This document shows, in pieces, positions 49,362-53,872 of a stretch of DNA of 64,000 nucleotides. Position 1 is the stretch's first letter; every line of letters begins with the position of its first letter. The stretch spans positions 62,001 through 126,000 of the forward strand of contig CANQDZ010000001.1 of assembly GCA_947594025.1 (NCBI GenBank), written 5' to 3'. A program made the position numbers and the translations under genes. Source of the DNA: Candidatus Gastranaerophilales bacterium (GTDB lineage: Bacteria; Cyanobacteriota; Vampirovibrionia; Gastranaerophilales; Gastranaerophilaceae). Below the pieces are notes generated by a model, which searched no databases, was not told the DNA's origin, and worked only from the letters and a program-made list of their open reading frames with translations.

Positions 49362-51020
49362 CTATTTTAGGGTATTTTTACTTCTCAATTTTCTGTGATA
49401 TGTAATTGCAAAGCGGTGAGCTTCGTCCCTTATGCGCTGAAAGAGGTGAAGTGCGGGACTGTTTAGAGGAAAAATTACAGGTTCTTTTTTATTCGGCAAA
49501 AAAACCTCCTCCTCTCTTTTTGCAAGAGATACAATATTAAGATTTAAATTCATGCTCCTCATAACATCAATAACGCTTGATAACTGCCCTTTACCGCCGT
49601 CAATTATTATAAGGTCGGGGGCTTTTTCCCCTTTTTGTGTTATCCTTTTAAATCTTCTGGTTAAAATTTCCCTCATACTTTTAAAGTCATCAACTTCGCC
49701 TTTTTCTATTGTTTTTAGTTTATATCTTCTGTAAAGACTTTTTTTTGGCTCGCCGTTTTCAAAACATACACCGGAAGCTACCGTGTTTGTCCCTTGAATG
49801 TGCGAAATATCATAACATTCAATAAGGTGAGGGAAAATTTTAAGATTAAGCTTTTCGGCAACATATGAGCCTATTTCGTTGTAGTTATTTTGCATTTCAA
49901 CAATTTCTTTCAGCCTCATTTTTTCAATGTTCATTTGAGCATTTTTTTGTGCAAGCTCCATAATTTCTTTTTGCTTTTTAGTTGCGGGAGTGAGTATCTT
50001 AACGTTTTCCTTTAACCTTTGAGAAAGCCATTTTGTGTATATTTCAGGGTCATTTATTTTTTGAGTTAAAAATATTTTTTTAGGAATATTCTTATCGGGT
50101 AAAAGTGCGTAATAATCTCTTAAAACAGATTCAATAACATCTTCTTCATCGGATTCAAAGTGTTTATTAAATTCAAAATCTTTTTTAGCAATAAGTCTTC
50201 CTTCTCTTATTTCAATAACGCAGGCGGAATATAAGCTGCCCGTTTTTGCAACTGAAAGATAGTCTTCGTCGATATTTTTGTTTTCGGCAACAACTTTCTG
50301 TTTTTCAAGAGTTTTTTCAATATCCGAGATGGCGTCGCGCATTTTGCCTGCTTTTTCGTATTCCATAGATTTTGAATACTCTTTCATTTTTTCTTTTAGA
50401 ATTTTTAAAAGTTCTTTTTGTCTTCCCTGCAAAAACAGTTCAACGTTTTTTATAATTTTTCCGTATTCTTCTTCTGACACAAGCTTTTGACAAGGTGCCA
50501 TACATTGTCCCATATCATAATAGAGGCAGGGTCTTGAGTTAAATTTTGGAGTTCTGCACTTCTTTAGGGGAAATATTTTTTGCAAAATTTCAAGAGTTGC
50601 ATGCATTGCACGTGCGTCTGTATACGGACCAAAATATCTTCCTTTAATAAAATTTTTATTTGCTTTTCTTGCAACAATAATTCTCGGATATTCCTCTTTT
50701 GTGACAACGAAATAGGGGAATTTTTTATCATCTTTTAAAAGAACATTGTATTTTGGCTTATGCTTTTTAATAAGCTGGGATTCCAAAATTAAGGATTCAA
50801 TTTCGGTATCCACCACAATGTATTTGATGTCTGCGATTTGAGGCACCATAACCATAAGCTTTGGGGAAGCATTTTTCTTATTTAAAAAATAACTTGAAAC
50901 ACGCCTGTGTAAGTTCTTAGCTTTTCCTATGTATATAATCTCTCCGTTTTTATCATAAAACTGATAAGAACCCGGCGAATTTGGAATTATCTCAAGTTGT
51001 TTTTTTATATTTTCGTTCAT
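49362..51020 (-). CDS. uvrC: excinuclease ABC subunit UvrC lacking the C-terminal HhH domain
   Basis: 552 aa. GIY-YIG nuclease at the N-terminus (SPGSYQFYDKNGEIIYIGKAKNLHRRV), a cysteine cluster (CRTPKFNSRPCLYYDMGQCMAPC), a UVR coiled coil (around 205-240), and the RNase H-like nuclease (CYDISHIQGT, IIIDGGKGQLSS, RDEAHRFAITYHRKLR). Normal UvrC continues for about 50-60 residues into a helix-hairpin-helix pair; here a TAG stops it at RSKNTLK. There is no room for the rest before spoIID. The start is the ATG at 51020, preceded by a leaderless-type promoter; upstream codons are non-coding. Confidence 0.93.
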   Translation of the reverse strand: MNENIKKQLEIIPNSPGSYQFYDKNGEIIYIGKAKNLHRRVSSYFLNKKNASPKLMVMVPQIADIKYIVVDTEIESLILESQLIKKHKPKYNVLLKDDKKFPYFVVTKEEYPRIIVARKANKNFIKGRYFGPYTDARAMHATLEILQKIFPLKKCRTPKFNSRPCLYYDMGQCMAPCQKLVSEEEYGKIIKNVELFLQGRQKELLKILKEKMKEYSKSMEYEKAGKMRDAISDIEKTLEKQKVVAENKNIDEDYLSVAKTGSLYSACVIEIREGRLIAKKDFEFNKHFESDEEDVIESVLRDYYALLPDKNIPKKIFLTQKINDPEIYTKWLSQRLKENVKILTPATKKQKEIMELAQKNAQMNIEKMRLKEIVEMQNNYNEIGSYVAEKLNLKIFPHLIECYDISHIQGTNTVASGVCFENGEPKKSLYRRYKLKTIEKGEVDDFKSMREILTRRFKRITQKGEKAPDLIIIDGGKGQLSSVIDVMRSMNLNLNIVSLAKREEEVFLPNKKEPVIFPLNSPALHLFQRIRDEAHRFAITYHRKLRSKNTLK

Positions 51021-51032
51021 ATTTATATTGTA
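51021..51032 (-). promoter_or_regulatory. -10 box 6 nt before the uvrC ATG (leaderless)
   Basis: TACAAT (51032-51027), ATAAAT, ATG at 51020. It decides the uvrC start. Confidence 0.55.
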
Positions 51033-51257
51033 CTTAATAATTAACTTTTTATCTGCTACATTATTAGCAAGAAGCATTATGGCAGGCTTATTTGGGAGAA
51101 AACCCCGATATTTTTAAAATAAAATTTCTTAATAAAACTTTACAAAAAACCGACTTTAGACTGGTAAAAGTTAGAAAAAGTGCTAACATGGGAATATAGA
51201 CTTTAACATTCAAGCGGACATTCAATTAGCAATTTACAACCATAAGGATAAAACCCC

Positions 51258-51545
51258 ATGATATTGGAGTACAAAATCAGTGAATTAGACATTCATAGTG
51301 CTTGGCTGCAAACTCTGTATGAGCTTGCGGATGAGTTGAATTGCAAATGTCAAACATTTTTTGAAGAAGGCTACAGCAAAGAGCACAAATGCTTTGCGCA
51401 AACCAGAACAATTAAAATCAGAGGCGAAGGCACTATGCTCAACTGGCTGAAATTGCGTATGGAAAGATATACTCATTTCATTGATACGCTAAATTCCAGA
51501 GCTGATGCAATCACAAGCTATTTGAATGACGACAACGAATTATAG
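51258..51545 (+). CDS. small helical protein, unknown function
   Basis: 95 aa, soluble, mostly helical. N-terminus MILEYKISELDIHSAWLQTL; three Cys (two in NCKCQ); a mid basic stretch TRTIKIRGEGTMLNWLKLRM; acidic C-terminus. No family recognised. AAGGAT is 8 nt before the ATG. The stop overlaps hisB by 6 bp. The 237-bp stretch upstream (51021-51257) otherwise holds only the uvrC -10 box and no convincing gene. Confidence 0.6.
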   Translation: MILEYKISELDIHSAWLQTLYELADELNCKCQTFFEEGYSKEHKCFAQTRTIKIRGEGTMLNWLKLRMERYTHFIDTLNSRADAITSYLNDDNEL

Positions 51546-52124
51546 AAGCCCTTTTGTAGACGGGATTTCTTCGCATTTTGCGGGGTCAATTTCTATTGCC
51601 TGTTTTAGTGCTCTTGCACTTGATTTAAAACTTGCTTCAATTATGTGATGAGTATCAACGCCGTCAAGTTTTCTTATGTGTAAACTTGCCCCTAAATTTT
51701 GCGCAAAGGATGAGAAAAAGTGCGCAAGAAGAACAGTTTCGAAGTCTGCCGTTTTTTCATCATTTACATCCACATCAACTTTAGAGAAAGGTCTGCCTGA
51801 AATATCAATAACGGAGAGAATTAGTGCTTCATCCATGGGGAGAATAAATTGTCCGTATCTTCTTATTCCTTTTTTGTCCGCAAGAGCGGTTTTTACGAGG
51901 CTGCCTAAGACAATTGCAACATCTTCAACTAAATGATGAGAATCACCGTCAAGGCTTTGAGCGTCAAGTTCGATATCGATTGAAGAATGATAAGAAAACT
52001 GTTCCAACATATGATTAAAGAAAGCAAAAGGTGTTTTGATATTATAATTGCCCAATCCGTCAAGGTTAATTTTCGCGCTTATTTTTGTTTCTTTTGTTTC
52101 TCTTATTTTTTCACCCGTTCTCAT
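51540..52124 (-). CDS. hisB: imidazoleglycerol-phosphate dehydratase
   Basis: Sixth step of the histidine pathway, a manganese enzyme. 194 aa, the stand-alone dehydratase without the phosphatase domain of enteric HisB. Signatures: FFNHMLEQFSYHSSIDIEL, DGDSHHLVEDVAI, and DTHHIIEASFKSSARAL, which supply the His/Glu metal ligands. Its ATG overlaps the stop of the hisC-HAD fusion as TAATG, so the two are co-translated. Confidence 0.95.
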   Translation of the reverse strand: MRTGEKIRETKETKISAKINLDGLGNYNIKTPFAFFNHMLEQFSYHSSIDIELDAQSLDGDSHHLVEDVAIVLGSLVKTALADKKGIRRYGQFILPMDEALILSVIDISGRPFSKVDVDVNDEKTADFETVLLAHFFSSFAQNLGASLHIRKLDGVDTHHIIEASFKSSARALKQAIEIDPAKCEEIPSTKGLL

Positions 52125-53857
52125 TATTTCACCTCGCTAACTTTTAAGATGTCGCCGATATTATTAATTACAACTTCCGCCCCCGATTGAATAAGCCTGT
52201 TTTTATAATTTTCATTCTGCTCGTTTAAAGGAAGCACACCCATTGCACGAACGCCGGCAGACTTTGCGCAAAGCATATCGTCCGTTGTATCGCCAAAGTA
52301 GTAAATGTCTTTATAGTAAGAATTTTTCTTAATATAATTTAAGCCGTCAGGGAAAGGTTTTTGGCGATTTTTAGGCAAATCGTCTCTTGTGATTATAAAA
52401 TTAAAATATTTTAAAATTCCAAATTTTTGCAGTGAATATACGGCTTCATCTTTTGGACGACCCGTAAAAACGCAGATATCGTATATTTTTGACAGTTTTT
52501 TAAAGCCGTTTTTATCTAAAAGAAGTTTTTCGTTATCAATCAAGCCTTTTGAGCCGTTACTGTTTTTATTAAAGAAAAATCTTTGAAATACATCGATAAT
52601 TTCTTTTTTATCTCTGTTTATTCCGTATTTTTTAAGTAAAAACTCGGTTAAATCCCAGTCGCAGTTTAATCCGCCCAAGTTTTTGCAATCTTGTATTTCA
52701 TGTTCGCCAAGTTTTTGGTGCGCAAAGTATTCAAAAGTTTTTTCTATTGCCGCCCTGTACGAATTTTGTACATCAAATATCACTCCGTCCATATCAAAAA
52801 CAAGCATTGTTTTAGGTAACAGGGCATTTAAGACTTTCTTGGTATCTTCTTTTTTGGGGACCGTTATTCTAAAGCAGTTTTCAAGATTTTTCTTTTTGCC
52901 GAAATTTCTAACCTTAATGGAATTTGTAAGAAGTTTTTTGTACACAAAATCAGAACACGCGCCAAAATCACATAAAACAAAGTTCCCTTCACTGTTGTAC
53001 ACTTTAAAACCAAGCTTACTTAAACCTGATATAAGCATTTTTCTGGACTCAATTATTTCTTTTTTCATATCTGAAAGAAATTTTTCATCATCCAAAACCG
53101 CAAGTCCTGCCTTAACCGCATAGTTATTTACGGAATATGGAGAGACGATTTTTCTTATGTTATCGATATTTTTGCTGTTTGAAACAATATAGCCGAGTCT
53201 TAAGCCTGCAAGCGAGCAATCTTTTGAGAACGATTTTACTATAATTACGTTAGGGTATTTTTTTGTAAGTTCGTAAAAATCCTGCCCTTCTTCAACAAAA
53301 AAGCCATACGTTACATCAATCACAATTGCAATATTTGGAAAATTATCAATAAGAAGCTCAACATCATGCACCTCTATTTTTTCACCCGTTGGAGAATTTG
53401 GAGAGGTGAGGTGTATTATTTTTGTTTTTTTATTTACGTTTTTTGCGATTTCTTCAGGGTCAAAAACCCATTTTCTTTTATATTCAACTTCTTTGAATTC
53501 CGCACCGTTTAAGTTTGCGTAAATTTTAGGCATAGAAAAAGTCGGGGCAAAACTTACCACGTTATCCCCTTTTTCCAAATAGGTTGAAAAAACAACGTTT
53601 ATCGCTTCGTCACATCCGTTTGTAAGAAGAATATTGTTCTTTTCCACAAGATGTTTTTTGGATAGCTTATCTAAAAGTTCGCCGTAGCAGGGATAACAGC
53701 TAATATATTTTTCATTTTTATCGGATAGAGCCTGAAGAACTTTGCTTGAAACTCCGTAAACATTTTCATTGGAATCAAGCTTCAACTCATAATTTTCATA
53801 ATATTCGTCAGTTTGATAGACAGGAATATCTTCAAGTATCTTTTTTGCTTTTAACAT
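52124..53857 (-). CDS. hisC: histidinol-phosphate aminotransferase fused to a HAD phosphatase
   Basis: 577 aa, two enzymes in one chain. Residues 1-347: PLP aminotransferase of the HisC type (LDSNENVYG, the PLP Lys212 in KSFSKDCSLAGLRLGYIV, NFVLCDF, RITVPKKEDTKKVL). Residues 350-577: HAD hydrolase with FDMDGVIFD (Asp355/Asp357), VFTGRP (motif II), KPFPDGL (Lys) and FGDTTDDMLCA (acidic motif). Downstream hisB lacks a phosphatase, so the HAD half may be the histidinol-phosphate phosphatase. The HAD half resembles a subfamily known in cyanobacteria and linked to histidine genes. That assignment is inference. Confidence 0.88.
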   Translation of the reverse strand: MLKAKKILEDIPVYQTDEYYENYELKLDSNENVYGVSSKVLQALSDKNEKYISCYPCYGELLDKLSKKHLVEKNNILLTNGCDEAINVVFSTYLEKGDNVVSFAPTFSMPKIYANLNGAEFKEVEYKRKWVFDPEEIAKNVNKKTKIIHLTSPNSPTGEKIEVHDVELLIDNFPNIAIVIDVTYGFFVEEGQDFYELTKKYPNVIIVKSFSKDCSLAGLRLGYIVSNSKNIDNIRKIVSPYSVNNYAVKAGLAVLDDEKFLSDMKKEIIESRKMLISGLSKLGFKVYNSEGNFVLCDFGACSDFVYKKLLTNSIKVRNFGKKKNLENCFRITVPKKEDTKKVLNALLPKTMLVFDMDGVIFDVQNSYRAAIEKTFEYFAHQKLGEHEIQDCKNLGGLNCDWDLTEFLLKKYGINRDKKEIIDVFQRFFFNKNSNGSKGLIDNEKLLLDKNGFKKLSKIYDICVFTGRPKDEAVYSLQKFGILKYFNFIITRDDLPKNRQKPFPDGLNYIKKNSYYKDIYYFGDTTDDMLCAKSAGVRAMGVLPLNEQNENYKNRLIQSGAEVVINNIGDILKVSEVK

Positions 53858-53872
53858 ACAAAAATTATACCA
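53858..53872 (-). promoter_or_regulatory. extended -10 box 6 nt before the hisC-HAD ATG (leaderless)
   Basis: TGGTATAAT (53872-53864), TTTTGT, ATG at 53857. Consensus hexamer plus TGn, just after the radical SAM stop. One of the best examples. Confidence 0.65.

Follow-up and report, generated by a model that had tools for sequence, protein, structure and literature searches.

A HisC-HAD fusion coupled to hisB is a candidate histidinol phosphatase in a Gastranaerophilales bacterium

A 64,000-nucleotide stretch of DNA from a Candidatus Gastranaerophilales bacterium, referred to here as the window, encodes a protein in which a HisC aminotransferase is joined to a HAD phosphatase. We propose that this fusion is a bifunctional enzyme that would catalyze steps 7 and 8 of histidine biosynthesis and is coupled to hisB, a reading to which we assign a probability of roughly 0.9. 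The HAD half would very probably perform step 8, which makes it a candidate histidinol phosphatase (EC 3.1.3.15). Genome annotation lacks histidinol phosphatase more often than any other step of histidine synthesis; of the 148 amino-acid-prototrophic microbes surveyed with GapMind, 28% had it at low confidence (PMC7311316). The combined evidence from the fusion, the operon and mutual exclusion names a specific protein family for this gap; if the assignment is true, histidine prototrophy can be predicted correctly in cyanobacterial relatives. HAD-type histidinol phosphatases as such are an enzyme kind already known. The HisC-HAD architecture is new as far as the searched literature shows, and so is the line of evidence leading to the family TIGR01548 as the cyanobacterial histidinol phosphatase.

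The fusion gene occupies positions 52124..53857 of the window on the (-) strand and runs from an ATG start to a TAA stop, with 577 codons for amino acids. Pfam assigns Aminotran_1_2 to residues 25-346 (1.3e-54) and HAD_2 to residues 353-541 (3.1e-18); Pfam and NCBIfam together extend the HisC part over residues 8-346 and let a HAD-IA phosphatase begin at about residue 351. We therefore speak of a HisC half (residues 1-346; 52820..53857 (-)), as delimited by Pfam/NCBIfam, alignment and Foldseek, and a HAD half (residues 347-577; 52127..52819 (-)), whose motifs I and II are separated by an alpha-helical cap. Against TIGR01141 (hisC) the first half scores 274.2 bits over nearly the whole model length, just missing the cut-off of 276.55. 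In an alignment of 24 fusions its residues K212 (the PLP lysine, 53222-53224 (-)), R220 and R330 are invariant. The second half carries the marks of the HAD superfamily, namely a DxD motif I, a threonine in motif II, a lysine in motif III and an acidic motif IV. Alignment of the HADs places motif I, DMD, at 52787..52795 (-), with D355 as nucleophile and D357 as acid/base; T465 of motif II (FTGRP) at 52463..52465 (-); K500 of motif III (K500-P) at 52358..52360 (-); and motif IV, D523-T-T-D526-D527 after G522, at 52277..52291 (-). The cap contributes the motif N398-x-D400-W401 (52655..52666 (-)), whose tryptophan is invariant in 40/40 aligned HADs from fusions, standalone copies and cyanobacteria. 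An AlphaFold2 model of the entire fusion has a mean pLDDT of 90.9 and a pTM of 0.85. Foldseek ranks HisC structures first for the HisC half (e.g. 8bj1/8bj3 and 3hdo), and the separately modelled HAD half matches HAD-IA phosphatases, 6iah among them. Could the fusion be an assembly artefact? It is not: the identical architecture lies directly beside hisB in 44 genomes of two surveys (five of them by coordinates only). The original prediction of a HisC aminotransferase and a complete HAD phosphatase in one protein thus holds for the open reading frame, for the domain assignments and for all four HAD motifs.

The top-scoring family for the HAD half is TIGR01548 (HAD-SF-IA-hyp1), at 101.9 bits, or 105.3 in the genome search. 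The cut-off is 140.2, which places this domain adjacent to the curated family and not within it; the highest score of another fusion from the same family of genomes (f1) is 125 bits. The HAD half is a member of a HAD-IA family around TIGR01548. The related cyanobacterial HAD subfamily to which the first reading of the locus had pointed is this very TIGR01548.

Downstream of the fusion lies hisB (51540..52124 (-), 194 aa). As predicted, it is an imidazoleglycerol-phosphate dehydratase alone, with IGPD as the sole Pfam domain. The predicted stop/start overlap can be read directly at 52122..52126 (-) in the sequence ...GAGGTGAAATAATGAGA, where the TAA of the fusion (52126-52124) and the ATG of hisB (52124-52122) form TAATG with one base in common. 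A GAGGTG ribosome-binding site precedes the hisB ATG by 5 nt. Translation of hisB is thereby coupled to that of the fusion, so steps 6, 7 and 8 would come from one transcript. An extended -10-like element, TGGTATAAT, at 53864..53872 (-), 6 nt upstream of the fusion ATG, suggests that the fusion has its own promoter and a near-leaderless mRNA. In one relative, G014, fusion and hisB are separated by a gap of ~470 nt (L026:1697-4520 (+)), unlike the tight coupling seen elsewhere.

In the proposed mechanism the HisC half, with PLP on K212, would convert imidazole-acetol phosphate to L-histidinol phosphate by transamination, and the HAD half would hydrolyze L-histidinol phosphate via an aspartyl-phosphate on D355. 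Mg2+ would be bound by D355 and the acidic residues of motif IV, the phosphate by T465 and K500, and the NxDW motif of the cap probably recognizes the imidazole-amine part of the substrate. The histidinol product would pass to HisD, whose gene lies elsewhere in the genome. Histidinol phosphate as the substrate, the roles of single residues and any benefit of tethering are inferred. Known HisC enzymes resemble the N-terminal half, to which the fusion adds a C-terminal phosphatase. E. coli HisB (HisN-HisB) likewise joins a HAD-type histidinol phosphatase to another histidine enzyme, but it combines a HAD-IIIA domain with the dehydratase, whereas here a HAD-IA domain is combined with the aminotransferase and hisB forms a gene of its own. 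HisJ, a PHP protein, and HisN, an IMPase, catalyze the same reaction as proposed for the HAD half with unrelated folds; neither was found in this genome.

How are these phosphatases distributed among relatives? In a class sample of 146 related genomes, 52 possess hisB. HisJ scores above its cut-off in 21 of the 52, and a HAD lies directly beside hisB in 28 (five by coordinates only): 24 of these HADs are fused to HisC, three are standalone and one is truncated at a contig end. Not one of the 52 hisB-positive genomes combines HisJ with a hisB-adjacent HAD. The remaining three have neither. G058 is 79% complete and belongs to a HisJ family of genomes. In G030 hisC is unfused, while G067, a genome that lacks the HAD, encodes a HisG-HisC fusion of 682 aa (L020:4516-6561 (-)). 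For the IMPases of G030 and G067, HisN is the best model, at 233-257 bits and below the cut-off of 275. In G067 two HisN-like IMPases are found in tandem (L133). By family, HisJ occurs in f4, f5 and f6 and the HAD in f1, f2, f3 and f8; the exclusion tracks family lines, so few independent events lie behind it. Large f2 genomes hold HisN-like IMPases (200-266 bits; G062, 266 bits) alongside the fusion, and there the HAD is consequently not the sole candidate. Weak TIGR01548 matches of 215-250 aa, which occur in many relatives distant from hisB, look like generic HADs and were set aside.

Within the extent of each stretch examined, the gene order in f2, f3 and f8 is hisG-(hisC-HAD)-hisB-hisH-hisF-hisA. 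Genus g46 shows hisG-HAD-hisB-hisH with an unfused HAD, which stands alone between hisG and hisB; the HAD thus keeps company with the pathway even without HisC.

A wider phylum sample of 292 genomes contains the fusion in 24 genomes of f1 and f10, and hisB adjoins it in 21 of them. In the other three, G255, G267 and G293, the fusion is present and hisB is missing genome-wide. Exactly these three fusions (L100:2601-4325 (+), L102:2622-4340 (-) and L103:2368-4134 (+)) have the substitutions D355N, D400N and D523S, so that DxDG has become NxDG and the nucleophile is gone, whereas D355 and D400 are unchanged in every other aligned member. The three form one clade in the tree, which makes the active-site loss a single event. 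Their HAD half is under purifying selection, with a dN/dS of ~0.09 between L100 and L102 that is rough since dS exceeds 1. The nucleophile-less HAD therefore seems redeployed rather than decaying, and may have taken on a new role as a pseudo-phosphatase. One further genome, G264, encodes a standalone HAD with an intact site (L101:3112-3858 (+)) that branches among the f1 fusions, and has no hisB. A second role for the HAD family may therefore exist.

With a profile of the HAD family the best PDB match by far is 6iah, the phosphatase Tt82 of Thermococcus thioreducens (E 9.5e-21), in an alignment that spans motifs I-IV. The cap motif reads GDDF in 6iah versus NxDW in this HAD. A monofunctional HAD-type histidinol phosphatase is reported from Thermococcus onnurineus (cited in PMC5516325), and this enzyme, TON_0887, is probably the Thermococcus his-operon HAD. 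Relatives of 6iah lie in Thermococcus loci of the order hisG-hisD-hisB-hisH-hisA-hisF-hisIE-hisC-HAD, with the HAD as last gene; hisC and HAD genes overlap in L120 and L123 and are 37 nt apart in L122. For these his-operon HADs TIGR01548 is again the top NCBIfam model, at 75-78 bits. As in our bacterium, a HAD-IA phosphatase directly follows hisC, but it is a separate gene there and fused here, at ~24-29% identity. The Thermococcus hisC-HAD gene pair represents the split form of the fusion.

Might the HAD half act on something else? HAD-IA phosphatases are often promiscuous, and the domain could serve a damaged or side product of the pathway or PLP, or have a house-cleaning function, with promiscuous phosphatases supplying step 8. 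Such an explanation would draw on this promiscuity and on the intact HAD of the hisB-less G264. We nevertheless consider it improbable: it does not sit well with the mutual exclusion of HAD and HisJ, with a HAD beside hisC in bacteria and Thermococcus alike, or with the HAD-type histidinol phosphatase reported from Thermococcus (PMC5516325).

The assignment of step 8 to the HAD half was also set against the gene content of the host genome (G000; 1.51 Mb). It encodes HisB as well as the histidinol dehydrogenase HisD, and step 8 is therefore needed. A HisA-HisIE fusion of 408 aa, its domains assigned from sequence, adjoins hisD (L049:2742-3968 (-), contig C32); HisA-HisIE proteins of similar kind are seen in L019, L020 and L021. 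The IMPase family PF00459 has no match in the genome, while the same model finds matches in 14/14 control genomes. A profile search for HisN (TIGR02067) gave no match in this genome either, and the best score of any protein in it with HisJ (TIGR01856) is 27 bits against a cut-off of 90.2. Five PHP proteins are present: one is DnaE-like, with 1155 aa, one is short and the others are RNase RNM-like or CehA/McbA-like. We rejected them as HisJ, as models of RNase RNM/nucleoside-bisphosphate phosphatase or of CehA/McbA fit better. At 98.9% completeness the absence of other phosphatase families is not absolute; the pattern, a fusion with neither HisJ nor any IMPase, is that of G000 and recurs in G014, G047 and G065.

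Three proteins of G000 match the HAD-IIIA model TIGR01656, and the fusion is not one of them. One such domain forms part of a 397-aa nucleotidyltransferase-GmhB protein (L046:156-1349 (+), contig C5). As E. coli HisB-N is likewise a HAD-IIIA domain, this GmhB-type HAD is a second possible histidinol phosphatase; similar HADs occur in nearly all fusion genomes. It could serve both heptose and histidine synthesis and leave the fused HAD to do otherwise. The domain reaches 95 bits with TIGR01656, above the cut-off, and dual use of this kind has been proposed for bacteria without HisN (PMC8305728). The GmhB model, however, fits it better (99.3) than hisB_Nterm does (57.8; cut-off 140), and the heptose cluster that contains its gene also holds gmhA-like, epimerase/dehydratase and kinase genes. 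Moreover, dual use of the GmhB protein would leave unexplained why the other HAD is fused to HisC, why it resides in his operons and why its active site is lost together with hisB. We rate this explanation as slightly less probable even than a different substrate for the fused HAD.

A regulatory or structural, non-catalytic role of the HAD half might be argued from the nucleophile-less HADs that three hisB-less relatives keep under purifying selection, but is most improbable, as D355, D357, K500, D527, D400 and W401 are kept in all aligned hisB-adjacent fusions and would be needless without catalysis.

Histidinol phosphatase activity of the HAD half, linked to that of HisC, is thus the reading we retain. 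The idea that this HAD is the missing histidinol phosphatase finds good support in the genome, distribution and operon data. The checks originally proposed gave no HisN match and no HisJ above cut-off in the genome, and no enteric HisB N-domain save the GmhB domain in the heptose cluster. The proposed survey of relatives found HAD and HisJ to be exclusive in hisB-positive genomes, the HAD in full his operons, and its site lost with hisB.

Did HisC and the HAD fuse once or twice? In the trees of the HisC and the HAD halves alike, f1 forms one clade and f2, f3 and f8 together form the other. The HAD tree clusters the f1 fusions with cyanobacterial and Thermococcus HADs, from which two fusion events would follow; a single fusion clade is compatible with the HAD data (p-AU 0.133).

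TIGR01548 scores above its cut-off in 121 of the 292 phylum genomes, in frames of standalone size (249-384 aa), and none of the 121 falls in the host's own family. From their position in the phylum and from the Synechococcus elongatus control, these genomes would be photosynthetic cyanobacteria. Among 14 named controls only S. elongatus and Haloferax volcanii have a TIGR01548 match at E<=1e-12. In most cyanobacteria the proteins are standalone, with 250-315 aa; they share NxDW, an SY(R) motif and the context of motif IV with the HAD studied here, and the model carries no assigned function. A literature search for TIGR01548 returned nothing relevant, and a tblastn search of plasmids for the cyanobacterial HAD gave no match. 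In S. elongatus the histidinol phosphatase step is a novel, unfilled gap (PMC7311316). In H. volcanii an insertion in the HAD gene HVO_0431, which may be its TIGR01548 gene, leads to histidine auxotrophy (PMC4300041), and a later review proposed HVO_0431 as the missing histidinol phosphatase (PMC8305020). One coordinate in Table 5 of PMC4300041 looks misprinted, since the insertions in HVO_0431 and HVO_1312 are listed there 5 bases apart. The TIGR01548-type HAD is the best candidate for the cyanobacterial step-8 enzyme. More broadly, and with less confidence than for the fusion itself, we think it fairly probable that cyanobacteria (down to sampled genomes of 1.6-1.7 Mb), the non-photosynthetic relatives of our bacterium, Thermococcus and haloarchaea all have their histidinol phosphatase from the HAD-IA family around TIGR01548, which would then be one more major family for the step, tethered to HisC in the relatives of our bacterium, possibly twice independently. 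Both the S. elongatus and the H. volcanii gap would thereby be closed.

Elsewhere in the window, uvrC (49362-51077 (-), 571 aa) seems, by eye, to be without the usual C-terminal helix-hairpin-helix region.
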